64,000 nt of DNA, from the NCBI GenBank assembly GCA_033439265.1, contig JAVTVX010000024.1:17654501-17718500 (forward strand), read 5' to 3'. Positions within the stretch are counted from its first letter, which is position 1; each line of letters begins with the position of its first letter. The position numbers and the translations under genes are program-made. This document shows, one piece after another, positions 6,851-34,884 of the stretch. Source of the DNA: Dillenia suffruticosa. Taxonomy: Eukaryota > Streptophyta > Magnoliopsida > Dilleniales > Dilleniaceae. The notes under the pieces were generated by a model, which made no database searches, had not been told where the DNA came from, and was given only the letters and a program-made list of their open reading frames with translations.

Positions 6851-8038
6851 GAATATTTATTAAACGAAAGTTATGTAAATAATCATATTTGTGTATGTGT
6901 TTTTAATAAAGAAATCTGAACATGTATCTATAATAATTACTGTATATATTGATGATTTAACTATCATTAGAACTCTTAAAAAGTTTTCAAATATCATAAA
7001 CTATTTAAATAAAGAATTTAAAAATAAAGATCTTGAAAAAAATAAAATTTTGTCTCATCTTGCGGTTTGAATATTAAAAGATAGAATTTTTATCTATCAA
7101 TCAATTTACACTAAAAAACTGTTGGAATGATTTAATATTGACAAATCATATCTATTAACCAATCCAATGGTAGTGCGTACACCCAATGTGCAAAAGGATT
7201 CTTTTCGACCTCGAGAGGATAACAAGGAAATTCTTGGTCCTAATACCATAGATAAGTGTAATTGGTACATTGACGTATCTTGTTAATAGTATTCGATCCG
7301 ATATAATTTTTCCTATAAACATGTTGCAAAATATAGCTCCACTCCAACAAAAAATATTAGACTAGAATTAAACATATTCGATATTGTCTCCAAGCTATAG
7401 TCGAAATGGGTTTATTTTATCCAAATAGATTAAATGCACAATTAATTAAATATGCAAATACTGAATCTTTATCTAATCCACATAAAACTTGATCTCAAAC
7501 GGATTATGTATTTACATATAATGGCACTACCATATCTTAGAAATCTATGAAACAAACAATGACTGCTATATCATCGAATTATGCTGAGATATCAAGTCGT
7601 GAATGTGTGTTGATAGATCAATAGTTAATCACATTCAAATATCATCTGGTTTAACTAGTATTAAGAAAATTTTCATAATATTATATAAAGACAATGCTGT
7701 ATGCATATCCCAATTAAAAGGATGGATATATTGAGAGTAACAGAACAAAACATATATCTCTTAAATTATTTTTCACATATGATTTCATAAAAAGTGAAGA
7801 TATTAATATTCATAAAATTCAATTAAATGAAAATCCTGCAAATTTGTTTGCAAAGATATTACCCACCATAATACTTAAGAAAATGATTCATAAAATTAAG
7901 ATGCGGCATCTTAAAGACATTATATGATATTTTCATTAGGGAAAGTATAATATGAACGGTTCTATGTTTGTCCCACTGAATTTTTTAGTAAGATTTTAAT
8001 GAAATATATTAATTATACATTGGACATCTAACTAGAAG

Positions 8039-8296
8039 TGTTATAAATTCTATGAAATTTGGATGGATGTCCATATTTATCAAGGATATAAATGACCATT
8101 TGAATAGATGACCATATTTAAGAATGACGATCAACTTTTGGGTAATTCTTTAATATGAAGATGACTTTTGGCCTCTGGGATAATGTATGATATATGGTGT
8201 TTAAGTTTTTATTTTGAGTTAAATTTTTATCTGTCTTATTTTGGTTTTTACTTTGAACACATCAAATTTTGAGCTCAAAAGCCAAAGTTTTATAAA
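8039..8296 (+). repeat. 3' LTR of the copia element, shorter copy
   Basis: It starts TGTTATAAATTCTATGAAAT and follows the 5' LTR, but lacks a middle stretch that the 5' copy has. Similarity stops near 8296, so the final bases of the LTR and the flanking duplication cannot be placed. Confidence 0.7.
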
Positions 8297-10239: not shown

Positions 10240-10662
10240 ATAAAAATTAGATCACATATTTGTTATTTCTTATGATCGGGAGTTACTATTAAGATATGAA
10301 CCACATATAAATATCGAGTGATGTAATTATTCTTGTGCAATCAAATATCTCTTCAAATATATTAGTAAAGGATCAAATAGAGGAACAACAATAATTCAAG
10401 ATAATATTATGATTAACAATAGCACAATAAAGAAGTAATTGAGATTGATGAGACCAAGACTTATTTGGATTATCGATATTTATCAACTTATGAAGCATGT
10501 TAGAGAAGTTTTGAATTTGATATCCATTATAGAGACCCAACAATAATACAACAAACCTTTCATCTACCAAAATGAGCAAACTCTCATTCCAAGAGATTTT
10601 GAGAAAACTTTTAAATAAAGAAGGAATTGATAGAACGATATTCACAGAATGGATGCATATAA
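10240..10662 (+). pseudogene. Helitron RepHel/PIF1-like gene, upstream part, broken
   Basis: Translated pieces match the linker between the replication initiator and helicase parts of plant Helitron proteins. In order these are 'SYDRELLLRYEPHINIE', 'CAIKYLFKYISKGSNRG', 'KTYLDYRYLSTYEAC', 'SFEFDIHYRDPTIIQQ', 'FHLPNEQT' and, from about 10618, 'GIDRTIFTEWMHI'. The pieces lie in different frames and are separated by stops and shifts, so the gene is dead. The last codons run straight into the CACTA terminus at 10663. The gene resumes at 21805. No helicase motif lies in this part. An antisense open frame at 10373-10645 is a shadow. Confidence 0.78.
10660..10662 (+). other. Left target-site duplication (TAA)
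   Basis: The three bases before the CACTACAAAAG terminus are TAA. The three bases after the right terminus are TGA (21805-21807). CACTA elements make 3-bp duplications, so these agree if one base has since changed. Confidence 0.6.
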
Positions 10663-10844
10663 CACTACAAAAGAAATGGCTTATGGAGACTGACGAAAAC
10701 CGTGAGGAAAATGTGATAAAACCACCAATAAAGTCTTCTCCAACGGATAGAGGTTTAGTTGGTTATACACGGGTCGGAATAGACCTATCCCGACGCTTGT
10801 TATGACAGTTGGAGAATGTTCAATATCAGACGGTTAGAAAAGTG

Positions 10845-12110
10845 TCAATAAAAATCAATCTTATATCATCAATTGTAAAGAATTAGTAAAAGTTACTACT
10901 TTTATCGTCAACTTATACATGATTAGTAAAAGTTACTACTTTTATAGTTATCTTGTAAAGGGTGAGTAAAAGTTACTACCTTTATCATCGCTCAATATAA
11001 CCATTAAGAATTGTTACAACTATTTATTGTCCACAATCACATAACACGTATGTTAGGAAATGTTATTACTTTTATTGTCAGTAAATATAAATGTTAGTAA
11101 ATATTACTACAATACCGTCATATCTTACCATATAGAAAATGTTAATACTTTATCATCACTCAGTATAACCGTTAATAATTATTATGTTATTTATTGTCGG
11201 AAAATATAGAACCAGATATGTTAGAAAATGTTACAATTTTTTTTGTCAGTTATGATAAGTATTGGTAAAAATCAACTTTTATCATCAATTTAAAAGCGTT
11301 AGTAAAACTTATTACCTTTATCGTCGCCTACTACAGAAATGTTACTACATGTTACTACTTTTATCATCCCTAACTATTGCCGTTAAGAATTGTTACTACA
11401 TGTTACTACTTTTATTGTCAGATATTACAAATATTAGTAAATATTACTACAGATATCATCGCTTATCACGTGTATAAGAAATGTTATTACTAGAAATGTT
11501 ATTACTAGAAATGTTACTATTGTCACTTACCACGTGTATAGGAAATATTACTACTGGAAATATTATTATTGGTACCATAACCGTTAAGAATTGTTATACT
11601 ATTTATTGTCGATAAGTGAGTCACCATAACCGTTAAAAATTGTTATGCTATTTATTGTCAGTAAATACAAAGTTATATGTTAGGAAATATTACAAAATTT
11701 TTGTTTGTCGGCTATGATAAATGTTAGTAAATATTATTACTTTTATGGTCGGTTATCACAAACATTAGTAAATATTGCTATTTTTATTGTTATTAGGATA
11801 TGTTACTAATTGTAAATCACCTAATTGTTAAGAATTGTTAGTGTTATATATTGTCGACTATTAATAAATATTACTACTTTTATTGTTGGATAGATGGGTG
11901 TTACAAAATTACCATTTTATCATCGCTTATACAAGTATTAGGAAATATTACTACTTTTTATCGTCTTCATTACTATCATTTTATTGTAGACATTTATCAT
12001 CGGTTACATTAATTACCTCAAGTATTAGTATAAATTACTGTCATGTATCATCGATTACTACACTTTCTTAGGAAATTAAGAAATGCATTCCCTTTTATCA
12101 TGTTAGGAAA
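10845..12110 (+). repeat. Left subterminal repeat array of the 11.1-kb CACTA
   Basis: Degenerate tandem units alternate between two forms. One is like TTAGTAAAAGTTACTACTTT followed by TATCGTC. The other is like ACCGTTAAGAATTGTTA followed by TATTTATTGTC. The first unit is itself nearly palindromic (AGTAAAAGT...ACTACTTTTA). More than a dozen copies can be counted by eye. Subterminal arrays of this kind bind the element's own DNA-binding protein in En/Spm. Confidence 0.75.
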
Positions 12111-12239
12111 TATAACAGAAATATTTACTGGATACAATTTTTTTAAAGTGGTATAGATTTGATTGCTATAAGAATAGAAAATAAAGAAATTATAAAATCA
12201 TATAAATAGAGAATGTTGATACATTGATTTCTAAGCAAA

Positions 12240-12720
12240 TGACATACACATATAAGAACCAAAAAAAGAAAAGAGAAAAGAGAAAAGATTGCAATTGCTA
12301 CAATTGCATGTCTTCTAAGATGTTACCATCATAATTGAAAGGTATCTTTATCCACAATCCTTCCTTCGTGTCAATCTATTCATATAAAACTATAGTGAAA
12401 TTAATATAATGACATTGTAAAGAATGACTGTAAATAAAAATATTACCTTTTGAAGTCAAGTATGATGATGATGGTAGTGATGATGATGATTGAATTTTAT
12501 GTGCATTTCGAGCATAGTAGTGAGTGAGTGGAGTAAAGTAGTGATATGGATGTTAGTGAGGTAGTGAGTGACTAAGTGGAGTCAATGGTAGTGATGATGA
12601 TAGTTAGGTTTTATGTGTACTCCTGTTAGTGAGTGAGAGATTTAGATGGGTTAGGGAATGAGAGATTTCGAGGGAAGAAAAAGATTTGATGGTGAAGTTT
12701 CCTGCGTATGATTTATATAA
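12240..12720. other. GA/GT-rich stretch with TGATGATGA repeats inside the CACTA
   Basis: Bases around 12460-12700 are purine- and GT-rich. They hold several degenerate copies of 'GTAGTGAGTGAGT' and 'GATGATGATGG'. On the minus strand this would be a CT-rich leader-like region, but no open frame follows. No function can be assigned. Confidence 0.35.
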
Positions 12721-13299
12721 TATATCATATTCACAAATAAATTTTCAAAACTTTTTCAAAACCCGCTCATTTTTTTCTCTTTTTCCTGCCTCTTTTTTTA
12801 TTCCATTTTTTTATTACCGCGTGCATTGTTTTTAATTCTTCACATTTTTTTATACTTGTAAATTTTTAATCAATGCCACATGTCTTTCCACTTAAAAAAA
12901 CCACTTACTTATTTTGACTACTTATTAACTTGTTATTACTAGATATTAAGGTTCAATAATGTGTTTCAATTAACATATCATATGTTTATATTTCAAGTGA
13001 CATATCATAAGTGTGAAACAAATGTTGAAAATAAATTTTCAAAAGCGTCATTTTTCATTAGAAAATTTTTTTTGTGGGATACGTTATTCTTTTTGACTGT
13101 CTTTTTATTTTAATCGTCTTATTTTTCAGATTTTAATAATTGTTTTACCCCTCTGTCTTCTTTTCTCCTATGTTTCAAATGTTTCATATGTGTTATTTTT
13201 CCCATTAGCTTGTGATTTTTAAGACTTGTTACGATTACATACAAATGCAACATATATGTTTTATATAAATTTTATACAATTATTGCATTACCATTGTCT

Positions 13300-13560
13300 T
13301 ACCACCTGTTACCTATTATAGATTACTTGTTACTATGTCCTTATTATACAAATTTTATACAATTATTGTCTTACCAAGATTATTTGTTATCATTTCTTAT
13401 CATCACTTGTTATCACTCGTTACCATAATAAAGAATAAAAAGTATTTGTTACTATTTGTAAATTACTTGTTACCATGCCAATTTTATACAATTATAGCAG
13501 GTGTTGGAGCAATTGTATCAATTTGCGCAATTGTATAACTGTGCTATAAATGATAAAAGT
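13300..13560 (+). repeat. Degenerate 'TTGTTACCATTTGTTATC' repeats
   Basis: Short words such as TTACTTGTTACCATG and CACTTGTTATCAC recur with varying spacing. The same vocabulary reappears at 15840-16260. The tract is poor in G on this strand, and the open frames crossing it are by-products of the repeat. Confidence 0.5.
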
Positions 13561-13614
13561 ACTTATTATCACTTGTTATCATGCTATATCACTATACATA
13601 TCACTACACATATG

Positions 13615-13745
13615 GATCATCCTTGCTTCGTGCATACGCGTGCATACACTTGCCCCCGTGGTTGAGTCGCATAGGCATTCGAAGCGCAACCGCGCAGGCA
13701 TGATTAGGCGCTCGCCCATGTGAGTACTGGGCCAACATATTATGG
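13615..13745. repeat. GC-rich island 1 inside the CACTA
   Basis: About 130 bases of GC-rich DNA in an AT-rich setting, with words GTGCATACGCGTGCATAC, CTTGCCCCCGTGG and CCGCGCAGGCATG. Similar words are found in islands near 17.3, 18.7, 59.3 and 63.7 kb. There is no credible protein. Confidence 0.6.
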
Positions 13746-14084
13746 TGAAAAAGATTATCTAGATTGGATGTATTGATGACATATCCACATTGAAAACAAC
13801 AAAGGATTGAAAACCATATGTTGAAGTATTTAATTTAACACAAAGATCTTACTGCATTAACTCACAAATATATTCATCATTTCCTCTTTATAACTTGTCT
13901 ATTGTATTAAATACAAGTCAAATGTTGTGTATTAAATACAAATCAAATGTTTTCCACAAGTTTATATTGAAATAAATATTCGAAGTAAGACAAAAGAGAA
14001 ATTGTTTTTGGCATTTTTGCGCGAAAAAAATTTGATTAAATTGGAGTTGAACTGAAATTACTGTAGTTAAAAAAGTATTCCTAA

Positions 14085-14215
14085 AATTACTACTTTTATC
14101 ATCGTTTCAAAAGTATTGATAAAAATTACTATCTTTTATTATCGGTTACTATATATATGTGTGTGTGTGTGTTAGTAAATGTTACTATCTTTTATCATTA
14201 TCGTTAGTTACCACA
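14085..14215 (+). repeat. Internal copies of the CACTA subterminal unit
   Basis: Three or four copies of the ATTACTACTTTTATCATCG-type unit occur in the same orientation as the left array, with a (TG)n run at about 14158-14171. They lie 2 kb inside the main array, suggesting a local rearrangement or an older element end. Confidence 0.6.
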
Positions 14216-15839
14216 ACCGCGTATGATTTATATAATACATCATTTTCTCAAACAAATTTTTAAAATCTTTTCAAAAGCCGCTCATTTTTACTTTTACTTT
14301 TTTTCCCTACCTCATTTTTCATTGCCCATTTTTTCTTTTACGCTTTTTTTTCCCGCCTCATTTTTCATTACCCGCTTCTTAATTCCTCACATCTTTTAAT
14401 CAATACGGCCATTACGTTTTAGTTGAAAAAATCACTTACTATGTAATTTTTATTACTTACTTTGCTATTGCTATATTTACTACATAGCGCATACCTACAC
14501 TGTGCTATGCTGTGCTAATTATGTCCATTTGATTAATCACATGAGTATCAAGTTATTAATATTATTAATTTAAATAGTATAAAATTATTAATATTATTAA
14601 TTTAAATAATATAATGATATGAAATTAGTAATTTATATAATATAGTGTTATAGTTTTGAAAATTCATTAATAATTTGAAATTATAATGTTATAATTTGAA
14701 ATTATGATGATAGTGTAATTAATTATATTGGTATAATGAATGAAGAGCACTTGTATATGTTGTTTTATTCACAAGGTTTTTATCTAAATAATACTAAATT
14801 CTCATCCCTATTTATAATCACAAAAAATCACAAAGGTGAATAAATAAAAAATTCAAACTCTCACATTTTCACACTTCACACAACTTCCACTCACACAATT
14901 TTCACACATGTACCACTTCCAACCCCACCTCAACTATAATATTATTTAAAATTAATAATAATCTTATAATATAATATTGCTCAATATTATTTAAATTAAT
15001 AGATAGTTACTAATAAACCTATAATATAATAGTACTCAACATTATTAAAATTACTAGATAATTAATTAAGTTATGTAACGATAATTATATCATTTAAATT
15101 AATATGGATAATACAAGATTCGATGGTTGAATGGTAAATTACAATGCCTCCCTACAATAATCTAATTTATAGTAATACATATAATAATTTATAGTAATGC
15201 ATATAGTAAGTAATGTATTACATAGTAATGTAAGATTAATATTACTATATTATTGGACAATGATGCGATCTCAAAAGCAATGCCAATGGTACGAACCAAT
15301 CCCAAAAAAAAAAGTTTACATCACCAATTAATCATTTAACTATCATTTTCACAAACAAATCAACAAATTTTCAAAATCACTTTAGCGCACTTTTTTCACA
15401 TTTTTTCAAAGTTTAGTTTTTTCCGTTTCTTTTTTTCATTACATACCTGTATTATTTTTAATTTCTCGTATTTTTTTCATACTTACTTAATACCCGTGAC
15501 GTGTCATTCCCATATCTTTGCCATATGTGTTATTTATTTAAGTTATTCGAATGAGTTGTTATCTTGTTATTTTATTGTTACTACATGTCATACATATACT
15601 TATTATCTTGTTTGCAATAATATTCACTTAATTTTTCATCATTAAATTAAAACCTCAAAACCTAATTAAAAAACTTAATTTTTGATTAAATTGACTCTAA
15701 AAGTAGAAAATTATTTTTGGCATAAAAAAAAGAGATATTATTTCAATTGTTTAAATGAATTAAATGTGTTGATTTTAATATTGATATTGTTAGCAATTTA
15801 GTATACTCTAACAATAATATTTTCACCCACTAAACTTTT

Positions 15840-16260
15840 ATTAATTGTTTAGCTTATCATTTGTTACCTTGTTACCATTTATTACCATTTGTTATTATAG
15901 GTCATGTTACCATGTCTTACATAATAGAAAATAAAATATTTGTTACCATTTGTTAAAAATCACTTGTTATTGTTATCATTTGTTATCATGTTATATTATA
16001 TAAATTTAATACAATTATTGTCTTACCATTTATTACATTGTTATTATTTGTTTAAAATCACTTGTTACCATGCTATATTATATAAAATTTATACAATTAT
16101 TAGTTTACCACTTGTTTCCGGGTGTTGGAGCAATCATTTACCTTGTTATCATTTTTTATTTGTTATATATCAATTGTTATCACTTGTTACATGTAAATAG
16201 GAAATGCAATTGTTATGTTGTTACCATTTGCTTGTTACCGCTTGTTACTATGCCATATCA
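15840..16260 (+). repeat. Second tract of 'TTGTTACCATTTG' degenerate repeats
   Basis: Same vocabulary as 13300-13560: TTTGTTACC, CACTTGTTA and ATATTATATAAATTTA recur. A phrase close to GGTGTTGGAGCAATT occurs at about 16119-16135 and at 13501-13515. Shared order suggests the two tracts are diverged duplicates. Confidence 0.5.
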
Positions 16261-16510
16261 CTTGATACCATGAATGAAAATAGATTGATCAAAAATATAA
16301 AAATAAAGAAGATAAATGTGTAAAGAAAATTATATTTCATACATATATTGATTTACGATAAATCAATACATAATTGTTAAAACCAACGGGGAGAAATAAA
16401 TGATAAATTAGAAAAAGGAAATAAATGAAATAAAGAGAAAATTGTGAACAGAAAAATGAAATAGACCTAAAATACAAAATAAAAAAATAAATAATTAAAA
16501 TAAATAGGGG

Positions 16511-16559
16511 AAGATTTTTTTGGTGGTGCCAAATTGATTAAGTTGGCACCCTAAATCTT
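16511..16559. repeat. Imperfect hairpin
   Basis: GGTGCCAA (16525-16532) pairs with TTGGCACC (16543-16550) around a 10-base loop. The outer arms AAGATTT and AAATCTT extend the stem after a short bulge. It lies about 40 bases upstream of two E2F-type words. Confidence 0.5.
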
Positions 16560-16587
16560 ATCTAAATAAAGAAGGGAATAAATACTC

Positions 16588-16607
16588 GCGCCAAACTTTT
16601 TCGCGCC
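16588..16607. promoter_or_regulatory. Paired E2F-type motifs
   Basis: GCGCCAAA (16588-16595) and TTTCGCGCC (16599-16607) both fit the E2F consensus TTTSSCGC, in opposite orientation and a few bases apart. Binding is not shown. Similar words occur at 14019-14026, 14349-14356, 20608-20615, 51479-51486, 57569-57576 and 59776-59783. Confidence 0.4.
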
Positions 16608-16689
16608 AATTTTGTTGACTCCAAGAAATAACACCAAACAGGAGGAGGAAGAGAGGAGGAAGACATAGCTGTTTTTTTTAATTGATGAT

Positions 16690-17285
16690 ATACGAGGTTT
16701 TGAATTTTCCTTTACATATTATATATTATATAGTACAAATATAAATTGCATATATATAATATAGTATAATACAATATAATATAATATAGTAATAATGTAG
16801 TAATATAATATTATAATATAATAGTAATATTCATATATATATATATATACATTAGTAATAAAGTAAAAATATAATGAATATTGTAATCTAATATTATATA
16901 GTGTAATTTCCCTTTCATATTATATATTACATATATATATATAGTAGTAATATATAGTAATATATTATAGTAATATAGTAATATAATAGTAACTATTAGG
17001 ACACTAACTATTACATATTATATATATTACCTATATAAAAATGTAATGTATAGTAATATAGTAATAATATATAGTAAAAATTTAATGTAATATGATAATG
17101 TAATATTAACTATTTCTTATTTTATATTACATATATATATATTATATATATATATATATAATATAATATAGTAATAATGTATAGAAATATAGTTGTGTAA
17201 AAGTAATATACTAAATTATATATTATATTATATTATATTATAAATAATACAATAGTAATATATTAGAAATATATTATTACATATT
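16690..17285. repeat. TA-rich low-complexity tract
   Basis: Degenerate 'ATATAGTAATATAATA' words and pure (TA)n runs (for example about 16826-16850 and 17128-17165) fill the stretch. The same 'TAGTAATATAGTAATA' vocabulary returns at 19730-20120. Nothing else is visible. Confidence 0.65.
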
Positions 17286-17289
17286 ATAT

Positions 17290-17505
17290 ATTACACATAC
17301 ATATCCTTCGGTACCCGCACGCCTCATGCAGGCATGCACCGTGCATGCTACATGCCTTCCTACGCCCCGCACAAGCGCAATGCGCACGGGCATGCGTGGT
17401 TGGGTGGCGTGCGCTCCTGCGGCCCAGCTACAACACAAGCGCAATGTGCGCGGGCATGCATGGTTGGACCGCACGTGCCCCCGCGACTAAGCCGCATGCC
17501 TTCTT
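17290..17505. repeat. GC-rich island 2 inside the CACTA
   Basis: An abrupt change from pure TA tracts to GC-rich DNA packed with GCATGC and GCGCAATG words. The phrase 'ACAAGCGCAATG(C/T)GC(A/G)CGGGCATGC' occurs twice about 60 bases apart, so part of the island is a tandem duplication. Open frames on both strands of up to 84 codons follow from high GC and are not supported as genes. Confidence 0.65.
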
Positions 17506-17532
17506 TTTATTTTACAAAAAATGCTAAAAAAA

Positions 17533-17604
17533 TGGTAGAACATAGGTTTGAACATGTGATAATCATGCCACCAACCAAGTTGTTCTAACCATTGTACCAC
17601 AATG
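17533..17604 (-). repeat. tRNA-like segment, SINE-head candidate
   Basis: On the minus strand an A-box-like word (TGGTACAATGGTT, 17600-17588) is followed 30-40 bases later by a B-box-like word (TGTTCAAACCT, 17554-17544). The segment ends CTACCA near 17533, like the 3' end of a tRNA. The arms do not pair well, so a functional tRNA is unlikely. A tRNA-derived SINE head or captured tRNA relic fits better. Confidence 0.35.
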
Positions 17605-17765
17605 TATTGTTGTGCCTTCTTTTTTTCTTGTTTCCTTTCTTTTTCACTCTCCCTTTTTTTTTATCTCACTCTCCTTTTTTTTTTTTATCTCACTCTCACT
17701 TTTTTTCTTATCTTACTCGTACTTCTTTTTTTTCCTTCACTTGAGTTTATGTTTTTTTTTCCTAT
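17605..17765 (+). repeat. Pyrimidine-rich tract
   Basis: T and C make up almost all bases, with repeated 'TTTTTATCTCACTCTCC' words. A similar tract follows the next GC-rich island (18765-18925), so island plus pyrimidine tract appears to be a unit present twice, about 1.15 kb apart. Confidence 0.6.
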
Positions 17766-17999
17766 TCTCTTTAAATTTGATTTGATATATTCAAACTATC
17801 TATTATTATTATTTATTTGAATTATGTTTTGTTGAATAAATGAATGAATTATGAGTTACTAGGTAAAAATTTCTTATGATTAAATATATAGATTTTTAAA
17901 ATTATTAATATATTATAATTTAAATTATTAATATATTAGTAATGTTGAAGTGTAAATAAAAATAAAGAAATTATGAAATCTGTTGTACCCCAGCACCAT

Positions 18000-18540
18000 T
18001 ATCCTGAAATTACACTCTACTGTATTACACTATCGTAAACTTACTACTTATTACTTACCACCTGGTATAACTTACAACCTAGTTATCAATTATCACTTAT
18101 CACCTATTTACTACTTACAATTTAATTATTGCTTAATACTTACTAGCTAGTTATCACTATCATCTAATTATTACTTATCACCCAGTTATCATTTATCCCA
18201 AATTTACTAGTTACCATCAATGTTTACCACCAACTTACGACGCTTGCCATTTCCTGCCACTCATCTCTTTCAAACCATACAATCTCTTATCATTCTCAAA
18301 ATTATCACAACATCTCTATCAATCTCAAAATTATCATAATTTACCCCTTACCATCTTACCATATCTTATTACTATCAAAATTATCACAACTTATCACCTT
18401 ACTACATCCTTACCAATTTTTTTTTTTTACTACCTCCTATCACAAATTATCACTTTCCTATTACAATCTTTTATTCTATTACAATCATATTACAACTTAT
18501 CACATTCACTTCTATCATAACTTAACTATTTTTAATATTT
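18000..18540 (+). repeat. G-poor degenerate 'CTTATCACC/TTACTACTTA' tract
   Basis: About 540 bases with very few G on the + strand. Words such as ACTTATCACC, TATTTACTACTTAC and ATTATCACAA recur without fixed period. The strand asymmetry is marked compared with flanking DNA. Confidence 0.55.
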
Positions 18541-18694
18541 ACAATATATGCACACTTTTTTTTCTTTTTTTTTTTTTGGAGCATTTGGATTTCTATGATT
18601 GAATTGAATAGAAATAAAATGGTATATGTGGTTGTTAATTTAAAACCATTGTAAGAGAGAAATGATATAATATAATTCAATATTTATAACTATC

Positions 18695-18765
18695 ATGTGT
18701 AACGCGCATGCATGCGCTCTTGCCTAGGTGGTATAGCCGCACAGGCGTGCACATACTCTCATCAG
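18695..18765. repeat. GC-rich island 3 inside the CACTA
   Basis: A short GC-rich patch beginning AACGCGCATGCATGCGC and containing GTGGTATAGCCGCACAGGC. The latter phrase resembles GTGGTTGAGTCGCATAGGC in island 1, so the islands are related in more than composition. Confidence 0.55.
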
Positions 18766-18925
18766 GCCTTTTTTTTTTCTTTCCTTTCTATCACTCTCCT
18801 TTTTTTCTCCATTTTCTTATCTCACTATATCTTTCTTCTTTTTCTCTTATCTCACCCTCGCTCTATTTTTTTCCTTTTCTTTTTTTCTCTATTCTAATCT
18901 AACCTTTTTCTTAACAAATTTTTTT
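18765..18925 (+). repeat. Pyrimidine-rich tract, second copy
   Basis: It is T/C-rich with TTTCCTTTCTATCACTCTCC and 'TTATCTCAC' words matching 17605-17765. It follows GC-rich island 3 as its partner follows island 2. Short open frames here are compositional. Confidence 0.55.
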
Positions 18926-19229
18926 TCTTAATAAACATTACAAATTATAAATTACAAATTATAACTTACAACCTTTTTTGCTTACTTTGTTACCATGCCA
19001 TATTATACAAACTTTATACAAAAAAGATAGAATATTCACTATATCATATCATGTGACTAAAACAATTGTTAAAGTCTGAACCATTAATATTAAAAAAGAA
19101 GGCGATAAAAAATAATAACGCATCCCACAAAAATTTGTAATGAAAAACATTTGGAATGGTTTAGATTTTCTAATGAAAAATAATGCAAAAAATTTATTTT
19201 TAACATTTATTTCGTGGTCACTTAAAACA

Positions 19230-20460
19230 TAACTGTGAACCTTATGTCCACTATTGGAGTAATAAAATTTACAAAAATTTTGGCTAAAATAATATAATCT
19301 AACATTACTATATAATACAGCTATAAATTATAACAAATTATAAGTAGTTTCATAATATAAATTTATAAATTTATTATAATTATGATTATTAATATTAATT
19401 TAAATAATATAATTATTGTCATTGTAATAATTATTATTATTACATTAGTATAATATAATATTACTATATTATACAACTTAATTATCATATTTTTTAATTA
19501 TAAAATCTAAAATATAAATTTTTATATGAATTAAATGTGTAATTAATATTATTAATTTAAATAATATAATGCATCATCGCACATCTCCACCACATTCCTT
19601 ATTTATAAAAATTTTGAATTATAAATTAGTATGATAAGATAATTAATATTATTATTTTAAATAATACAATCATATATGAAATTTTTATGTAAATATAAAA
19701 TTATGTAACAATGTAGTAATAATAATCTAAAATATATAATATAATGTAGTAATAGAGTAGTAATATTTACTAGTAGTAATATACTAATATAGTAATAATA
19801 AGATAAGATTATGCTTGAGCTGTCATGACCAGATTAAATATATAGTATAATATAGTAATATAGTAGTAATATTTACTAGTAATAGTACTTACTAAGTAGT
19901 AGTATTTATATAGTACATACTAATATTTACTAGTAGTAATATAGTAATATAGTAATAATAAGAGAAGATTATGCATGAATCGGTTGAGCCGTTTATAGTA
20001 TAATATAGTAATATAGTAGCAATATTTACTAGTAGTAGTAGTAGTTACTAGTAGTGGTGGTCCTTATATAGTAGTAATATTTACTAATTATAATATAATA
20101 ATTTAGTAGTAATAAGATAAAATTATATATGCGCGGTTACCACGCGGTTGATTATTTTAAATTTTAATATTATTATTTTTAATTAATATAATTTAAATTA
20201 TTAATATTAGTAATTTAAATAATGTAATGATATTAAATTGCTAATTTATATAATATAGAGTTATAATTTATTTTTTATTATTAGATAGTATAGATGATAA
20301 TAATACATTATGAATATTATATAATTTTATATAAATTTCTAAAGATATTAACATTAATATTAATTTATTATATTAATTTATTTTAATTCATATTTACGAT
20401 CTATAATTTTAACGACAACTTCATAATAAAATCTATTGACAATTCCATAATAAAATCTCT
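19230..20460. repeat. AT-rich module with family member near 59 kb
   Basis: Phrases in the order 'TTTAAATAATGTAATGATAT', 'ATTATATAATTTTATATAA', 'ATTAATATTAATTTATT' and 'TTTTAATTCATA' (about 20210-20395) recur in the same order at 59590-59685. Both copies follow a GC-rich or CG-containing patch. A block of TAGTAATATTTACTAGTAG words lies at 19740-20120, including two close copies of AAGA(T/G)AAGATTATGC (19800 and 19960). Confidence 0.5.
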
Positions 20461-20739
20461 AATTTTTGCGTGCTAGAAAAAATTTTTCTATCCCCATCAA
20501 ATTTAATCAAATTTCGCAGTAAAAATAATTTTTCAAATCAAATCCAATTTAATCAAATTTTCCTTTTTTGTGCCAATTTTTCAGTTTACTCCAATTTAAT
20601 CAAATTTTTTCGCGCTCAAAACAATTTCTTTTTTATTTTGCTCCGTGTTACTTTTCTAACTGACGAAACTGACAACAAAAGAATAATATTTCGTAACGCT
20701 TGTGTGTAACTGATGATACAAGGAGTAACTTATACTAAT

Positions 20740-21000
20740 GACCGATGATCAAAGGAAGTAAATTTATTGACACATATGGTATCTGATGATAAAAGATAGT
20801 AACATTTACTAATATAATAACATTTACCATAGTAACCCATAATGAAAGATAGTAACATTTTTAACAGGTAATAATCGACGATAAAAGATAGTAATATTTA
20901 CTAACATATATGATTACTGTCAATAAATAACATAACATTTTCTATCGTATATAGTAACTAATAGTAACTTTTACTAACACTATTCTAACCGTCAATATAC
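20740..21000 (-). repeat. Right subterminal repeat array of the 11.1-kb CACTA
   Basis: Units such as GATGATAAAAGATAGTAACA followed by TTTACTAA are the reverse complement of the left-array unit. Five or six copies are visible. Opposite orientation at the two ends is the expected layout for a CACTA element. Confidence 0.72.
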
Positions 21001-21300
21001 ATCCTATACTTACCATACCTCATTACACTCACTATACCTTACATATAATACACTTTCCATACCTTACCATACTTTACCGCAAGTTACCATATCCTACATA
21101 TCCTACACTTACTATATATTTCATTTCCTACACTTATCATACCTTACCGCTATTTATCATATCCTACATATTCTACACTACCTTTTTACACTTACCATAT
21201 CTTACCATAACTTACCGCAACTTATCATCTTAATATCTTATCACATTTATAACCTTCCACCTTTGTATCTTATTGTTTCTTTACCCCCTCTCACTCACAA
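20985..21300 (+). repeat. G-poor 'CTTACCATA/CCTACA' tract
   Basis: Degenerate repeats of TACCATACCTTACC, CATATCCTACA and similar words run for about 300 bases with almost no G. Vocabulary overlaps with 18000-18540. Confidence 0.55.
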
Positions 21301-21459
21301 AAACAACCTTGATACTAATTAATTAACACACTCAATATAACTTTATATATAACTCTATATAAATAGTGGATAATAACTATCAATATAACTTTAAGTTACT
21401 ATTTACTAAGTCACTTACTAAGTTACCAAGTTACTAAAGAAAACTACATATATTTACCC

Positions 21460-21600
21460 TTCACAAATTATAGCTGTAAGCATACAGCATTGCCTATACA
21501 GACACCTTTCAAATCATCATTAGAAAACCTAAATTTAGTGATCACAAGTTATAGCCGTAAGGATAGGAGTACGTACATACAGACGTGCTTATATCCATAA
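21460..21600 (+). repeat. Diverged tandem pair near the right CACTA end
   Basis: 'CACAAATTATAGCTGTAAG' and 'CACAAGTTATAGCCGTAAG' begin two units about 75 bases apart, each followed by a '(C/A)ATACAGAC'-like phrase. An inverted pair ATGGTTGAAAATC (from about 21643) and GATTTCAACCAT (to about 21719) lies between them and the terminus. Confidence 0.5.
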
Positions 21601-21804
21601 GTATAGAGTATTATTTATACAAATGCTATGCTATCTTTAGTCATGGTTGAAAATCTTTTCTCGATGACCATTTTAAAAGCGTAGTAAAATATATACTATT
21701 TCTAACGATTTCAACCATAGTCGTCTATATAGATTTAAAAAATTATAAGTAAAACTTATCGATAATAAATATTGCTATCGAGATAATGCTTCAATTTTAT
21801 AGTG

Positions 21805-23730
21805 TGAACATGATTGATCCTGAAACTAGTCAACGGACTTATGCCCAATTCCCTTCAAAATATGTTTGCTATGAAAGAGATAACCATGAAAACAAGGAAA
21901 ATATATTGCGAGAATTGTTTATGTTCATCCAGCTATAGAAGAAAGGTATTACTTCAGGGTCTTATTTAATATTCTTAAAGTTCTTAAAAGTTTTACCGAA
22001 TTAAAAACTATTGTTAGTGTTGAATATCCAACACTCAAGCAAGTATGCTATGCATTGGAATTAATTAGTGACAATAAAAAGTGGAATGATGCTATAAACG
22101 AAATAAGATTGTGGGCTCTTGGGCTAGAGTTAAGGAAACTATTTGTTACAATTCTTGTTCATTGTAAATCAATGACCATCTTCAATTTTGGAAATGCAAT
22201 TGGAAGATTATTCAATTTTCCAGAACTAATCCTTAAATGGCTTGCAATTGAAGAATTATTGCTTGTTGGAGATAAAGAATATCTTAGAGCAAAATGGAAG
22301 ATCCATTATAGACATCACAACCTTTCCTCAACCAGATGTTAGCTTTATGAGTAAATTGGATAATAGATTGATACATGAAGAGCTAAACTATAATTTAGAA
22401 AATTTGAAAGAAGAACATATTCGATCTTCTACTTTACTCAATCAAGATCAAAAAAAGATCTATGATGACTGAAGTCCCTCATCAAAAGGGAGGCCTATTT
22501 TTTGTATATGGACAAGGAGGAATAAGCAAGACCTTTTTATACAGCACAATTATTGCAAAATTATGATCAGAAGGATTAATTGTTCTTGTTGTTGCTTCTT
22601 CAGGTATGTAATTATATATATAATAAAAATTTCATTTGTTAAGCATTTAAATTGTAAGATATTCTAACAAAAATTATTCAAAATTTAAATTTTGTAGGAA
22701 TTGCTTTATTACTTTTGCCTGGGGGTAGGACTACACATAATCGATTTGACATTCCTATAAAAATTATTGAAAATAGTACATGTGGAATAAAGTAGAACAC
22801 AAATCTTGTGGAACTCATGCAAGAAGCCCTCATGCATGAAGCCTCACTAATCATTTGAGATGAAATTCCAATGATGCAAAAAATATTTATTCAAAGCTTT
22901 GGATAAAACATTGAGAGATATTATTGAGTACAACCATCCTGATGCATCTGAAGAACCTTTCGGTATAAAAACAGTTCTCTTGGGTAGTGACTTTCGCCAG
23001 ATATTACCACTTATCCCCAAAGGTAAAAGACAAGATATTGTTAATTCTTGTATCAATAGATTTTACTTGAGAGATTTCTATCAATTGTTCTTGGTTACAA
23101 AAAGCATGAGAGTGAATGAATTGAATAGCAATGACAAGTTAATCAAAGGAAAAACCACTTTAATAAATGGATATTAGATATTGGTGATAGAAAAGTAAAA
23201 GTTATTAATAGAGAAGGGAATGATCTTCCAACGTGGATAAAAATTCCTGATAATTTTCTTATCAAGCAATGAAGTTCTCCTATTAAGATAATAGTACAAG
23301 CAACATATCCTCATTTTAGATCAAAGTAATATAATGAAGAATATTTGAATGAAAGAGTTATTTTAACACCACTTAATGAAGTTGCAGAACATCTAAATTA
23401 CTTCATGTTTGATATTTTGATTAATTCAGCAAGAACATATAAAAGCTCAGATTAGATATGTAAGTCATCTTCAAATTACTTTGAGCAAAAAGGAATATAC
23501 CCAATAGAATTCCTTAATAGTTTGACCTTTTATGGATTTCCAAGACATGAGCTAAATTTTAAGGAAGTGATGCCTGTTACGTTACTAAGAAATGTAAATC
23601 CATTTCTTGGGTATGTATAATGGAACAAGAGTTATCATTACATAGTTGTGACAATAGATAGTAGAAAGCTAAAATAATAAAAGAAAGTAGAGCTGGAAAT
23701 AAATTTTTGATCCCCAAAATTGTAGTCACA
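21805..23730 (+). pseudogene. Helitron PIF1-like helicase, downstream part, broken
   Basis: It continues the gene left at 10662 with 'NMIDPETSQRTYAQFPSKY', then regions typical of plant Helitron proteins: 'RSIIDITTFPQPD', 'LDNRLIHEELNYNLE' and 'LNQDQKKIYDD'. The Walker A site reads GQGGISKT (22510-22533) where GxGGTGKT is usual. The Walker B region reads LII-stop-DEIP (near 22848), one codon away from the usual IIWDE. The 'GSDFRQILPLIPKGKRQDI' motif is well kept (about 22987-23040). Further pieces, 'ILDIGDRKVKVINREG', 'ERVILTPLNEVAEHLNYF' and 'EFLNSLTFYGFPRHEL', lead to about 23730, where an LTR retrotransposon cuts the gene. Several stops and shifts make it non-functional. Confidence 0.85.
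22604..22697 (+). other. GT-AG intron in the helicase gene
   Basis: The 94-base insert starts GTATGTAATT and ends TTTTGTAG. Joining its flanks gives '[15 protein letters not shown]', the expected helicase sequence after Walker A. The insert is much more AT-rich than the exons. Confidence 0.75.
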
Positions 23731-26700
23731 TGTTAGGCTCCGACTCTCAATCGAAGGCCGTGAACAGCCGCCTGTTATCCCATATGCTGTCCATCACACG
23801 ACACACATACTGAGACAATGCAAGGCTAACAATTTCACTTGTTTAAAATCTGTTTTTCCTAAAAATATAATTTTCCAAGTAAAAAAAAAAATTAAAATGC
23901 AACACTTTGCCTCAATGCATTTCAATGTATTAAGATACAATAATTTCAAGAGTTTCAACTTATATTTTTTTTTCATAACATAATTACAATCATCCCATAA
24001 AATGTACATGGTCATTATATAGACCTCAAGCATACATCATCAATTTTCATTTTGGAAGAATGGTTGGTACCATACTTAAAACTCGACATCTCCAAAATAT
24101 ATGTCTAGTGTATCGAAAATCTCTCGACACGTCTCCCTGCCAAGTTTGTCATCATACAAAAGTGAGGGATGAGTATTAAGGAAAATATTCAATGAGTGAG
24201 GAAATCGACATTATGTTATTTGCAGAATGTGTGAGCATGGAGTGTCAAATCACATTTTTAAAACAAGATGATATTATAAATCGAGTATGACAATTCTATA
24301 AATTAAGTGATCATGTATCATATATCATAATATCAACATATGCATCCTTTTACATTTCGAAAATCATTTGGAGCCTATTAATAAAATATTCCTGGTAAAA
24401 GTCTACCGTGATACATGATAGACGCATTGGGTTTTTTGTTTTTATATGCAAGTATAAAAACATTTAACTCTCTACCCCAATGCCACAGGTCTTACCAAGT
24501 GCTAGATATTGGAAATGCGCATTTCCTCCCCTTACTGTTCAACCGAATATCCCATGTCTACGCGCATATATATATATATAATCAATCATGTATAGAATCC
24601 CGCCCGATGTTAGACAATGGCGTCACACATGTCCTTCCCGATTTGGTTCAATCGGCTACGACTATCCATATGATGTTTGGGGATATCTCCTGCAGAAACG
24701 TATCCGAACACACATGGGGTGCCTTTACAAACGCCCTTCGTAACTACGGTAGTCCACTAGGGATATCATTACATTATCTCATTATAAGTAGGCATTCGGT
24801 CCACACATTTCATTAAACCATTTCAAATCAGCGTATTAAATCAATAGAAGCATATAAATCATATCGAGTTTTCAAAAAGTGGCACAATTTCATTTCAACA
24901 CAATTTATGGATGAATATCATTTGAATTAATCATTTGAGACATTCCAATGATCACAAAGAGAAGTATTTATAAAATGTAGACCAAATCTCATACTTTCAT
25001 ACATGTCATAAAAGATGTCATTTTGAAAAACTATAAAATATGTATTTTTACTCAATCAAAAACATAACGTCGAAGTCTCACTCAATGTATATGGAAGGGT
25101 ATGTCACTCCCTAAAATGTACCACAATGTGTAAGAAATGTGTTCCACTCGTTCGGTCACCAAGTGTATCTCTATAATGGCAACACATAATATGTCATAAA
25201 ATTAAAAACCATCATGTTAAATTATATTTTTATTTAATCCTTCATCTAAGATCAAGACTTATAGTGTCATAGGTAGGTTTCAAATGTGTACATACGCTGT
25301 CCCCTTTTCATCACCAACCCAGTAACTTCAAACGCTCATTTCCAAAGGCACACTATTCAGCCCGGAAGCTTCAAGATTCATCATGTTTAAGGTTTCAATT
25401 TCCTTTTCATATTGTACATTCCTAAATCCTTAAAATGCGTATTTTCTCATGCATGTATTTTCGGTCTCAATATTTCTCATATTTTTTGACAAGACAATAC
25501 CACTTTAAACCATTACTCTCATATTCTATTTCTTTGTTTACTCAAAACAATCCGCAAAATTCCAAAAGTTAGTATTGCTCAAAATCTCACCTTCTTTATG
25601 CACAAAATAGTCCACATTTAAATTATACATTGCATAATTCATCCTTTAAAATTTTGCATGATTACACATCAATTGAATTCATCACTCATTCATAAGATTT
25701 CACCTTCTAAACTCATTACACATACACATACTCGTAAAATTTCTTATATTCTCGGCTACTCACCAAACTAATACACATTTTATCACATTACCTAAGCACA
25801 CGTATACTAACTATCCATGCACACACACCTTTATCTCATCATTTCAATCAACAATCATACACATATATTTATCACTTTTGTATTAGAATTTTGCATACAT
25901 TACTCATGTTTCATTTGTGTTCCACTAAGACTCTAAATTATAGAATCATGCTAAAATATCATATTAAAACATTCACACAAGGTTCTCAAATTTCAGAAAA
26001 GTGTATAATTCTTTTACCTCAGATTTTAATACTTTAAGTCCAACTTAGACCTCTCTGCAAAAGTTCTCTCTCTCCTCCTTGCTCTTAACTCTTGGCCTCC
26101 TTTTGTTTACCAAGCTAGATGTCTCCTTTTTGACTCCAAAGTTAGATATGTTGTGTTAGGGTTTGAGGGGAATGAATCTACACAAACATTTCCAGATGGC
26201 ATTTGAAGAAATCAAATCTTTCTCCAATGAGGTTGCTCTTAGTTTAGAGAGAAAAACAGAGAGCTTTTGCTTCTTTGGCTTTGAACATCTCAAGAGCTTA
26301 GAAGTAAAAGCTAAGTGTTTAACTTTGTTAAATTTTGCTCCATTAAATCCTAGCCTTTAAACATTCTCAAGATCAATTCTATGCCCTATGATTACTTTGT
26401 CACAAGCAAGTGTTCACTCTCTCTCAATAAGAAACACTCACGGTTTTGCTATTTTCTCATACTACAAACTCACTTTCTCACACTACCACTCTAGTCTTTA
26501 TTAATTGTATGTCTCCCACCAACCAAGATTCAAAGGCTTACAATTTTGATCCAATTCCAAGTCAAATCCTCACCATTAGTGTGTTTTCAAAAAAACTCAC
26601 ACTTTCACTCAATGAATAGTATTCTTGTCTCCCACTAACTCAATCCAAGGGGCTAAATTAATTCATCTCACTTCAAACTCAATTTTCACCTTTGGATTAA

Positions 26701-27430
26701 CTTCTCAAAGGCCAAACAATTTCTTCTTTCCATCACCTTATGCAGCCACCTCACCTATCCCACTCTCTACACCCTTGTTTGGTCACGGTTTGGGGAAGAG
26801 CATTTGCCAAATTACTTCTATTTCAATCATTGATCATCTCAAGGGTTATTTCTCACCATTGGATCATTTTGCATCAAACCAAGAATCATTTTCTCTCACT
26901 TCATTTATCCAATAGTTAATATCTAGTCACAAACCATTCAAAAATCCTAATCATCTACTCATACTACAACTTCATTAATTGTTTATTTCTCTCAATTTTC
27001 TTTTCTTTTAAATTCTTATTAATTTCAAATGACATATAAAAATTTATATTTGACCCCAAAAAAATTTCAAAATTTCACATTAGACCCCAAAACCTCGCAT
27101 TAGGCCTAAGCGTCAAAACGTAGTTGTTTAGCCTTATCGAGCCACATTTGACCTGGTTAAGGTTTACCGGTGATTTAGTTTTATGAAGTAAGATTTACTC
27201 AAATTTAAGATTTTTATACTTTTTAGAGTCGTCCTCATCATTATTGGACTATCAGTGGTCATTTTTAAAAATTTTTGAATTTTCGACGATTAGGTCGAAA
27301 TTTTCGGGAACGATTTTAGCAAAAAAATTTCTTGGTAGATTTTTTATATAGAAATATGAGTAATATCATATATAAAATGAAGGGGAGTACAATTATGAGT
27401 ATACCGAAGTATCAGTGTTATATTTTTCTA
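23731..27430 (-). repeat. Left (3') LTR of the chromovirus
   Basis: It begins TGTTAGGCTCCGACTCTCAA, closely matching the start of the right repeat (TGTCACGCCCCGACTCTCAA). Alignment holds to 26861 against 40333. The inner end is placed between the last integrase/chromodomain codons (near 27450) and about 27400, so it is uncertain by some tens of bases. Open frames inside it (for example 24415-24816) are not conserved in the other LTR and are not genes. Confidence 0.8.
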
Positions 27431-27449
27431 AACCCCTAAAAATAAGTTT

Positions 27450-29177
27450 CGTTCTCGAAACTTAAAAAAACTATACAAAAAAAGCTGGGGGTATTGTCTC
27501 CTCATGACCTTGTTGGACTCCCAGATCTCCTCCTCGATTTGGTCACTCCTCCATAATACTCAGATTAAAGAAACTTTCTTACTTTGCAGCTTTCTAGTCT
27601 GCCGATCAATAAAAGTCACTGGATAAACTGGTAGACTCAAGTCCTCACACAACTCAACTGGTGGAGGCTCTAGGATATGTGATGGATCAGGCAGGTATTT
27701 TCTAAGTACTAAGATGTGGAAGATATCGTGTATGCGTGAAAGCTCATCTGGCAACTCTAGCCTGTATGTCACATTTCTGACCCTCTCAAGGACACGGAAA
27801 GACCCAATATATCTGGGGCTCAACTCAAATGGTCGCCGCCTCCTATTGGCATAAACCTTCTGTCGGTCCTGGGCAGTCTTCATCCGCTCACGGATGATTT
27901 TTACTTTTTCTTTAATCTCCTCAACAATCTCAACACTACTGAGTTGTCTCTCTCTTACCATATTCCAACACAAAGGAGTACGACATTTCCTCCCATAAAA
28001 TATCTCATACGGAGACATCCCAATGCTTATCTGATATCTATTATTATATGAAACTCTACCAATGGGAGATGCCAATCCTAGCTACTCCGAAAATCCATAA
28101 CACATGCTCTCAGCATGTCTTTTAGGGTTTGGATGGTCCTCTTTGACTGACCATCAGTCTTGGGGTGGTATGCTGTGCTGAAACTCAGTCTAGTACCCAA
28201 TGCCTCCTATAATTTGGGTCAAAATCTAGTTGTAAATCCGGAGTCTCTGTTTGACACTATTGACATAGGTACCCCAGGAAGTCTGACAATAATGGAGGTG
28301 TGCCAACACCTCTAAGGGATAATCACCACGAATAGGAATGAAGTGTGCGGACTTGGTGTGTCTATTGACGATCACCCATTTAGCATCATGTCGTGCCGAA
28401 ATCCGCGGTAGCCCTTTCACGAAATCCATCGTAATGTGTTCCCACTTTCACTCGGGAATGGGAAGGGGCTATAAAGTGCCGGTGGGTCGCTGATACTCGG
28501 CCTTCACCTGCTAACAAATTAGGCATCGGATAACAAAATCTGCGATCTCTCTCTTCATACCAGACCATCAATAACTATCTTGGATAGTCTGATACATTTT
28601 CGTACCGCCCGAATGCATAGCATAAGTGAAAGAATGAGCCTCCTTAAGAATAACTCTCTGAAGATTGCTATCGGCGGGAATGCAAACCCGCTCTCGGTCT
28701 ACCACTAGTCCATCATCATGGACTCTAAAATCTCCGCAATTATCTCTACGAATCCTATCAAGAATGCCTCGGAGTACCTTATCTGATCCTTAGAGCTCCC
28801 TAATATGGTCGAGCAAAGTTGACCTTACCTTAAATCGGGCTATTAGTGCTCCATGATCATCATTAGCCAAACTGACTCTTAATACATAGAGTCTCACTAA
28901 ATAAGAGAGATAAGCATTCTTTGTCGTCTGAGGAGAAGATGATGACTTTTGGCTCAAGGCATTTGCTACAACATTTGCTTTTTCCGGATGATAATTGATG
29001 ATAAGGTTGTAATTCTTCAATAACTCCAACCATCTCCTCTATCTGAGGTTCAATTTCTGCTGGATGAACAAATACTTAAGACTTTTATGATCTGTGAATA
29101 CCCTGCAGGTCACCCCGTATAAATAATGTCGTCATATCTTCAAAGCAAAGACTACGGCTGCCAACTCGAGATGGTGT
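27450..29177 (-). pseudogene. Chromovirus RNase H end, integrase and chromodomain-like tail, broken
   Basis: From right to left: RNase H end ('ELLKNYNLIINYHPEKANVV'), integrase zinc-finger area, the integrase core ('MDFVKGLPR', 'WVIVNRHTKSAHFIPIRGDY') and the C-terminal region ('NRYQISIGMSPYEIFYGRKC', 'LPDELSRIHDIFHILVLRKY'). The end resembles the chromodomain linker of Tekay-type elements. It is a fossil with several breaks. Confidence 0.85.
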
Positions 29178-31000
29178 AACAATTCAGAGAGCAAGTGATC
29201 ATAGTTTTAAAACTTTAAAAGAAAATATAAGTATCCCATCAAACTCGATAATCTCATCAAAATTCAATGCATCAAGATTCAATACCCTCACAAGGATTTC
29301 ACTCTATACACTCAAAGTGTTTAAGGGAATTTATCAATAACTCTCAAAATCAAAACATAGTATGCTATTACCATAAGTTTGCTATTACCATAAGTTTGCT
29401 TATTTATCAAATCTCCACCACTACTTATATGAATTCAAAACAAAAATCCAGGGGTCTTTGTATGGGTTGTAACGTGGCTTGGGTAAAGGAAGGGTAAAAG
29501 GATAAATGTATCGTGTAATAAATATATCAAAGAAACATGTCAAGAACATATCCCCTATATCCCATATCATGAAATACAATCAAGCCAAAAGAAAGATATT
29601 GATCATTATCATTTCTCAATCAAACTTTTTACGTTTTCTCTTCAAATTTCCCAATTTCAAATTTTGGGAATTTCTTCTTCTTTTTTTTTTCTTTTCTTTT
29701 CCCTTCTTTTTTTCCCTTTTTTTTTCTCCCTTTTTTTTTCCTCCCCTTTTTTTGTTGAATAAGGAAACTAAATAAGGATCAATGAAAATGTTGCGCATAT
29801 ACAATCCAACGCAATTGTATAATCGACTTCCCAAAATAAATCCCATAATAGAAGTAACTCATTCCCTTTGCAAATAACCACTCAATATATGCTCAAATCA
29901 CATGCTTCTTTAATATAAGGACCAAAAAGAAGATAAAGCGTAAAAAGAAGGTTATGTGTTAATTAATGAGGTTAACGCAAAGAAATGGGTATAAGTTCAA
30001 AGGGTTTCACTAAGAGAAAAATTATGCACAGGAAGGTTTGTTTTCGAGAGCTAAAATGGGTAAACCTAAATGCCCCCATCATATTAATGTATGAACTCAT
30101 TGATGTGGTCTCAAAAAGCATAGCAAAGCAAGTTATAGAATAAACACACTAAGATTGATGCACACTCATGAAGAAAGATTAGAGCAAATTTGATGACATG
30201 CTCTTAAGGCTCAAATTCTCACAAAAATTGTGCAATGTTGTATCAAATCTATCACATTTTCAAATGACTCAATCATCAAGATCAATGGGACACTTTAAAA
30301 CAATTTTATCCAAAAATAACTAATCACACTTGTCTCTTTCATGCATTTCAAACTCAAATCAACAATGTATACTAACTCAAAATCATTATCCGACAAAATC
30401 CAGAGAGTACGAAGTTTCAAAGAAAAATAGAAGAAATGACATTGGCATAAAAATCCTCCCCCACACCTAAATACTACATTGTGCTCAATGTATGCAAAAG
30501 ACGAGAATTTGAGACACAATACTAAAGAAATTCACAGTTAGCACAATTGAAAACTAATCTCAAAAAATGAAAGATGTTAGGCAAGAAAAAAGGACAATGA
30601 AAAGGAAGAAGAAAAACGAGAGTACTCCCCTAAGGTGATGCCGGGCACTGTGGAGAATGCGAGGTCTCCTTTATGAGTCTTTCGGTTTGGGTAGTCGCAA
30701 CTAGCACATTTTTCCAAAAAATTTATTGGGTTGTGGAAACCGCGTGATCACGCCCTAATGCCAAGACTGCTTCTGTCCGAAAGCTAACTGTCACTCTATT
30801 TGTGTCTTGGCTTGAGAAAATTGCTGAACACATGCAAAAAATTAAAAGAAGGGATAAATAACACTAAGAAAATATTTAAAATTGAAAAAAAAATGAAATA
30901 ACTAAAAATTAAATCAAACTCTAAAAAAAATTTTGGGTTGCCTCCCAACAAGCGCAAGTGTTTAACGTCGTTATGCTCGACGGTTTTCACTTGTTTCTCT

Positions 31001-32240
31001 TCAAGGAGGCTTCAACTTTACTTTGTGAGGCGCATATGACTTTCTTTCCATATCTAATTGTGCATTCAATTCAAAATCAATATCACATTTTTCTTCACAA
31101 ATTTCCTGCACAATTAAATAAAATATATCAGCAGAACAAAGTAATTGACACTCATTTGGGTACTTCATAGGATCGAAAATAATAAATTTCACAATCTTGC
31201 CATCGAACTCGACGGAGAGGGTACCCTCATCCACATCTATTTTGGTCTTTACTGTCTTCATGAATGGTTGTCCTAATAGAAGTGGAGCTGAATTTGTGAT
31301 AGTGTCTCTTTCCATTTTCAAGATGTAAAAATCAATTGGAAAAATTAATTCGTTAACCTGCACCAAAACATCTTCAACAATCCCCTCTGGATCAGCACAT
31401 TTTTCAGGTAGAATTCCTTTGTTGATATCACATACATTCTTACCCATCTCATCACCTCTTATTTTCCCTACTTCCTTCTCGTATTCTTCCATCTTGGATT
31501 CCTCAAACTTAATTGAACTTTCATCGATGGCCTTATCCTCTTCTTCTTCATCCTTCATTTCATCTACCTTCTTGGACGATGGTGGGGTTGATCGCAACAC
31601 CATTGCACTATCATTCTCCTTAGGGTTTACTACCGTTTGTGAAGGTAATTTCCTTGAAATTCGAACCTCCAAATTGCTAACCGAAGTGGCTAGCTGAGTG
31701 ATTTGATTTCCCAAATTTTGAATACTAACTCTCGTTTCCTATTGAAATTGTTGAGTATTAGTCGCGAGAGCCTTAACTATATCCTCTAAAGACATACCAG
31801 AATTTGAGGGTTATGCAGGTGCGGGTGTTGTTCTGTTGAAGTGTTGCCATCTCGTGTGTCCTCCTTGGTGTCCATAGCTCAAGTTTGGCTGATCCCTCCA
31901 TTCAGGATTATAATAATGGGAGAAAAGATCATACGTACATTGAGGTTGGTCAGGGAATCCTCCTACCATATTTACTTGTTGAATGAAATCTTCTTGTAGG
32001 GATGGACACATATCTGTCGGATGTCTGGGAACTGAGCATATGCCACAAACTTTGGTTGCACGTATTTGCCTTGCAGCTATCTGACGAACCAAAGCAGTCA
32101 ATTCAGAAATTTGATTTTCAAAATTCGAGTGACTTACCTCATGAGCTGGGTTCTCGATGCACAAGGGATGTTGGTTCAAAATTGATGCAGCTAACTCCAT
32201 CTTTTCCTCTCCAAAAATCAATAAACAAGTGAAAAGCACA
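31001..32240 (-). pseudogene. gag zinc-knuckle and protease of the nested gypsy element
   Basis: The right part (31811-32239) carries a zinc-knuckle motif with 'GHPTDMCP'-like wording ('CGICSVPRHPTDMCPSLQED') and 'VNMVGGFPDQPQ', typical of Athila/Tat-group gag. The left part (31001-31714) has an acidic coiled region and then a protease-type stretch ('SAPLLLGQPFMKTVKTKIDV', 'GTLSVEFDGKIVKFIIFDPM'). Both are on the minus strand and nearly adjacent. Open frames are long for a fossil, suggesting a younger or less decayed copy, with one or two breaks. Confidence 0.75.
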
Positions 32241-32260
32241 AACTAAGAAATTAAAATAGT

Positions 32261-32278
32261 TCCCTGGCAACGGTGCCA
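32261..32278 (-). promoter_or_regulatory. Primer binding site, tRNA-Asp type
   Basis: On the minus strand it reads TGGCACCGTTGCCAGGGA, close to TGGCGCCGTTGCCGGGGA, the complement of the 3' end of plant tRNA-Asp used by Athila/Tat-group gypsy elements. Confidence 0.7.
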
Positions 32279-32283
32279 AAATT

Positions 32284-33663: not shown

Positions 33664-33664
33664 T

Positions 33665-34700: not shown

Positions 34701-34884
34701 ATCAAATTCCCGAACTGATGGTAATCCGGGTAGCTTCTCGGGGAATACGTCAGGAAACTCCTGTACTACGGGACCTCATCAAGCCTCGTACCCTCTATGA
34801 CGGTATCTATCACGTGGGCCAGATATACCTTGCATTCTTATCGTATCATCCATCTGGCCTCCATCACTAACACTATACAACGGG

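Follow-up and report, generated by a model that had tools for sequence, protein, structure and literature searches.

The window analysed here, a stretch of 64,000 nucleotides, contains two runs of Helitron-like coding sequence that are separated by about 11 kb. This raises the question of what lies between them, where the intervening sequence begins and ends, and in which order the parts came together. Positions 10663–21804 very probably represent a non-autonomous CACTA (En/Spm-type) DNA transposon of 11,142 bp, located within the RepHel gene of a Helitron that predates it. The evidence consists of its termini, the deletion length, the mirrored subterminal repeats and a search that found no transposase remnant; it is drawn from the window itself, the PDB, Pfam and publications. 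The earlier note had already proposed that a non-autonomous CACTA element invaded the Helitron gene at a later time. This is still the best reading, and the mirrored subterminal repeats, which that note had not used, add support to it.

Helitrons are recognised by a RepHel protein with a PIF1-type helicase; further hallmarks are a 5' TC end, a 3' CTRR end with a hairpin, and insertion in AT. The left part of the RepHel gene (10262–10662, + strand) carries frameshifts and stops, its broken frames spanning 10262 to 10661. On its own, this flank matches residues 700–812 of Helraiser (PDB 7lcc_A) with E = 3.5e-14 (query residues 2–122 of 134). The right part (21805–23730, + strand), in which the frames start at 21807, matches residues 872–946 of the same chain with E = 4.1e-5 (query residues 50–124 of 225). 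It also contains a PIF1 match (PF05970, model positions 115–196 of 223) at 22875–23174 with E = 3.7e-19. The alignments to Helraiser and the PIF1 match all read through the frameshifts and stops of the pseudogene. The last ~0.5 kb (23189–23730) is presumably part of the gene as well, judging by family motifs. With Helraiser matches on both sides and PF05970 on one, the assignment of both flanks to a single, decayed Helitron RepHel gene holds on the grounds of protein similarity. Neither the junction peptide nor either of its halves reaches a Pfam cut-off, and among PDB chains nothing matches the isolated PIF1 piece at E ≤ 1e-5. A search beyond the adjoining LTR retrotransposon for the Helitron C-terminus, with a peptide that we take to be typical, finds nothing significant. 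The locus had previously been described as an insertion inside the Helitron helicase; the insertion site is indeed within the RepHel gene, but the PIF1 match starts ~1 kb farther downstream, so the site precedes the helicase domain.

When 11,145 bp are removed, the left reading ...IFTEWMHI continues in frame as NMIDPETSQRTYAQFP. Neither of the Helraiser alignments obtained with single flanks reaches the junction, but the alignment of the joined peptide does, and it is gapless at the junction (Helraiser residues 746–845, E = 6.5e-8). Both cut points were shifted by up to 12 bases, giving 625 joins and 49 deletion lengths (11,121–11,169), and each join was aligned to the Helraiser segment and to a consensus that we take to be of the plant Helitron type. 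With either reference, the highest score falls at 11,145 bp, which is the length of the element plus one triplet (11,142 + 3). The best score at this length is 40 for the Helraiser segment and 95 for the consensus, compared with 38 and 84, respectively, at the next-best length. Keeping or removing both triplets lowers the score of the predicted join (31 versus 37 for Helraiser; 80 and 81 versus 91 for the consensus). The claim that deleting the element together with one triplet restores the frame is therefore borne out by the in-frame join, the gapless Helraiser match and the peak at 11,145 bp.

The same scan constrains the length more closely than the position. Against Helraiser, two of the 625 joins score better than the predicted join and seven, including itself, score the same; against the consensus, six score better and four, including itself, are equal. 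A pair of cut points shifted by ten bases, with the same deletion length, slightly outscores the predicted pair (40 versus 37 and 95 versus 91). When 961 joins were scanned separately against a Helraiser segment of greater length, two joins, one of 11,145 and one of 11,121 bp, shared the top score of 40. Protein similarity thus leaves the cut point within the 11,145 bp unfixed, and it is the CACTA termini that fix the exact base.

The element starts with CACTACAAAAG at 10663 and ends with TTTTATAGTG at 21804, both exactly; the longer terminal reads are CACTACAAAAGAAATGG from 10663 and TTCAATTTTATAGTG up to 21804. These termini have the 5'-CACTA...TAGTG-3' form of CACTA (En/Spm) elements, whose other marks include inverted repeats of at least about 10 bp and a target-site duplication of 3 bp. 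The left terminal inverted repeat, CACTACAAAA, occupies 10663–10672 on the + strand, and the right one, whose reverse complement is CACTATAAAA, occupies 21795–21804 on the − strand. The two agree at 9 of 10 bases, and at 11 of 16 over a longer span. The flanking target-site triplets are TAA on the left (10660–10662) and TGA on the right (21805–21807). The frame and the spacing favour a duplication of 3 bp, and the difference between the triplets probably reflects a later mutation. Both ends named in the earlier note are thus found at exactly those positions in the sequence; its statement that the 3-bp flanks agree applies to two of the three bases.

Identity of the inverted repeats alone proves little, and statistics based on terminal inverted repeats only were rejected as non-discriminating. 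Of 1324 CACTA/TAGTG pairs located 1–25 kb apart in the window, 41 differ at no more than one of 10 bases, and a subset of 10 additionally agrees at two or more of the three flanking bases; the 10663/21804 pair is included in both sets. The stricter form CACTA[CT]AA[AG]A is found in the window at two starts (10663 and 40334) and two ends (21804 and 42468). The abundance of such pairs in an AT-rich window lends some colour to the idea that the Helitron pieces are two unrelated decayed copies lying side by side, with CACTA and TAGTG at their borders by chance. This is extremely unlikely: the two pieces correspond to consecutive parts of a single protein, share a reading frame and are spaced as in the family, and CACTA termini stand at both borders. 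Membership of another superfamily with terminal inverted repeats, such as PIF/Harbinger, which targets TAA or TTA, is hardly credible either. The left triplet TAA resembles that target, but the right triplet is TGA, the subterminal repeats are of the CACTA kind, and the CACTA...TAGTG termini led us to reject a PIF/Harbinger identity.

Eight units close to the left end served to build a model of the subterminal repeat, which was applied with a threshold of 8 bits or more. All 24 matches in the window are inside 10663–21804, and none is in the other 52,858 bp; eight of the 24, all of them left-hand, are the units used to seed the model. Seventeen matches, all on the + strand, are located at the left (10883–14198, with 14 of the 17 within 10883–11965), and seven, all on the − strand, are located at the right (19756–20978). 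This is the mirrored arrangement of subterminal repeats by which CACTA elements are recognised. Twenty shuffles of the element yield one match in total. Four of the seven right-hand matches cover the near-palindromic core only, where strand means little, and three (20711, 20783, and 20876) cover most of the repeat unit. The 13-base core alone is unspecific to the element, occurring inside and outside it 6 versus 0 times without mismatch, 9 versus 2 times with one mismatch, and 17 versus 12 times with up to two. When the left 2 kb is compared with the reverse-complemented right 2 kb, the best match has E = 7e-23, compared with 2e-7 in the opposite-strand control.

In the right-most ~0.8 kb, nothing resembles the left end at E < 0.05, and the left-end repeats are absent. 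The left end and this right segment could therefore derive from two CACTA elements fused by nested insertion or deletion, in which case the 11.1 kb would not be a single ordinary transposition unit. Consistent with such a composite, no similarity at E < 0.05 links the terminal ~200 bp on the left to the terminal ~800 bp on the right apart from the ~10-bp ends, no right-hand repeat lies past 20978, and the 3-bp flanks match incompletely. Yet the mirrored repeats flank one body, no other CACTA start is present in 10663–10883, the two other TAGTG sites in 20978–21804 fit worse, and the deletion length fits a single insertion plus 3 bp. In addition, the asymmetry of the right end is not disqualifying, because the soybean element Tgmt* is reported to have imperfect ends of 13 bp and subterminal repeats that are likewise asymmetric (PMC2613891). 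We consider a composite unlikely. The further proposal, that a composite CACTA element pairs the ends of two subterminal-repeat families and thereby shows the use of mismatched ends ~11 kb apart by a transposase, is more doubtful still. A single CACTA element bounded by 10663 and 21804 is the preferred reading. As a separate observation, two degenerate copies of a ~45-bp unit, unlike the left-end repeats, are seen by eye at 21465–21600, near the right end.

Autonomous CACTA elements carry a tnp2-type transposase gene. Of the 14 open stretches of at least 80 aa wholly inside the element, 10 were scanned, and none of these matches a Pfam family above cut-off; their best score is to DUF1072 (E = 0.046, below cut-off). 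In tblastn searches against the element, seven transposon proteins of a second CACTA element in the window find nothing at E < 0.05, nor do three helicase pieces, the best match of the combined search having E = 0.062. No tnp2-type gene is thus detected by Pfam in these 10 of 14 stretches or by tblastn with the seven proteins, and the element is therefore taken as non-autonomous.

Within the element, some stretches consist of internal repeats, others of tandem arrays, and one is a GC-rich island (17301–17520, peak 68% GC). This island is among the four strongest of 11, the others being 51961–52480, 59301–59520, and 63701–63980 (peaks 68–80% GC in 100-bp windows). The four are rich in GCATGC/GGCATGGC words and lie in AT-rich surroundings; weak similarity (E about 4e-6) links the islands at 51961 and 63701. 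A scan of the left end for bacterial-type promoters gives 8 sites, compared with a shuffle mean of 11.1, and Rfam gives no match at gathering score in the whole window.

The right part of the Helitron gene adjoins an LTR retrotransposon (23731–40333, − strand), which seems to cut the same gene at 23731. Its LTRs of 3.1 kb (23731–26860 and 37192–40333) are 87.1% identical over 3,155 columns, and matches to RVT_1 (reverse transcriptase) and to a Tf2-1-like SH3 domain on the − strand suggest the Ty3 type. If the yearly rate is taken as 1.3e-8 per site, the LTR divergence would correspond very roughly to 5 million years. Similarity of the right LTR ends at 40334, where CACTACAAAAAAACCC starts. This is the end of a second CACTA element (40334–49272, − strand), which is incomplete in the window; its far end and the remainder of the right LTR beyond it were not found there. 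Like the first element, it has a CACTACAAAA start and subterminal repeats. Unlike the first element, it has a TAGCGAC-type subterminal motif and tnp2, DUF4218, and DUF4216 genes, matched on the − strand beyond 40334 and probably belonging to this end. A further CACTA-type end, CACTACAAGAAAAAATTCC, is present at 42468 on the − strand, with a flanking triplet that matches that of the 40334 end at one of three bases. On the other side of the Helitron gene, 2493–2892 and 8033–8295 are direct repeats with ~77–83% identity, perhaps an old LTR pair; the frames between them resemble what we take to be the end of a copia-type polyprotein.

The element's ends, the interruption of a single gene, the length of the deletion and the mirrored repeats are directly observed; beyond them, a history of the locus can be proposed. 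The Helitron would have been there first, and the 11,142-bp CACTA element would then have inserted into its RepHel gene, upstream of the part that encodes the PIF1 helicase domain, with a target duplication of 3 bp. A transposase supplied in trans presumably catalysed this step, recognising the element by its CACTA ends and subterminal repeats. The LTR retrotransposon would have entered the same Helitron gene at 23731, before or after the CACTA element, and the second CACTA element would have entered the LTR retrotransposon at 40334. The types of element point to a plant origin of the window. In accordance with what is expected for plant transposons, no relatives were reported among IMG/VR viral contigs, prokaryote genomes and phages, or among plasmids, for which the queries were the Helitron peptides and, at the DNA level, the left 3.3 kb of the element.

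The locus is well-bounded nested-transposon wreckage in a commonplace setting, and the element is another CACTA of familiar type. Nesting of transposons is ordinary and no general idea is changed; on wheat chromosome 3B, 30,199 nested insertions involving transposable elements of every kind have been reconstructed (PMC4290129). What is gained concerns an anonymous non-autonomous CACTA element in which no coding sequence is recognised: its ends are placed exactly, its empty site can be predicted, and its insertion is dated relative to the Helitron. Repeat libraries can make use of this in an AT-rich genome, in which CACTA elements of this sort are difficult to annotate.

Among known CACTA elements, Tgmt* of soybean resembles the element in its general description. 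Tgmt* is likewise large (20.5 kb), located in a gene (in an intron), and provided with imperfect CACTA inverted repeats and asymmetric subterminal repeats, and it has a 3-base duplication of the kind that frame and spacing favour for the 11.1-kb element. However, it reportedly codes for both a transposase and a DNA-binding protein, whereas no coding remnant was found in the 11.1-kb element (PMC2613891). Jozin, a CACTA element of Chenopodium, shares the CACTA ends and subterminal units and differs by a transposase ORF and by ends of the CACTAGT type, whereas the 11.1-kb element starts with CACTACAAAAG (PMC8978399). For the interrupted gene, Helraiser (PDB 7lcc_A) provides a homologous protein that spans the junction; in contrast, the gene in the window is a pseudogene, cut by the CACTA element and seemingly by the LTR retrotransposon.
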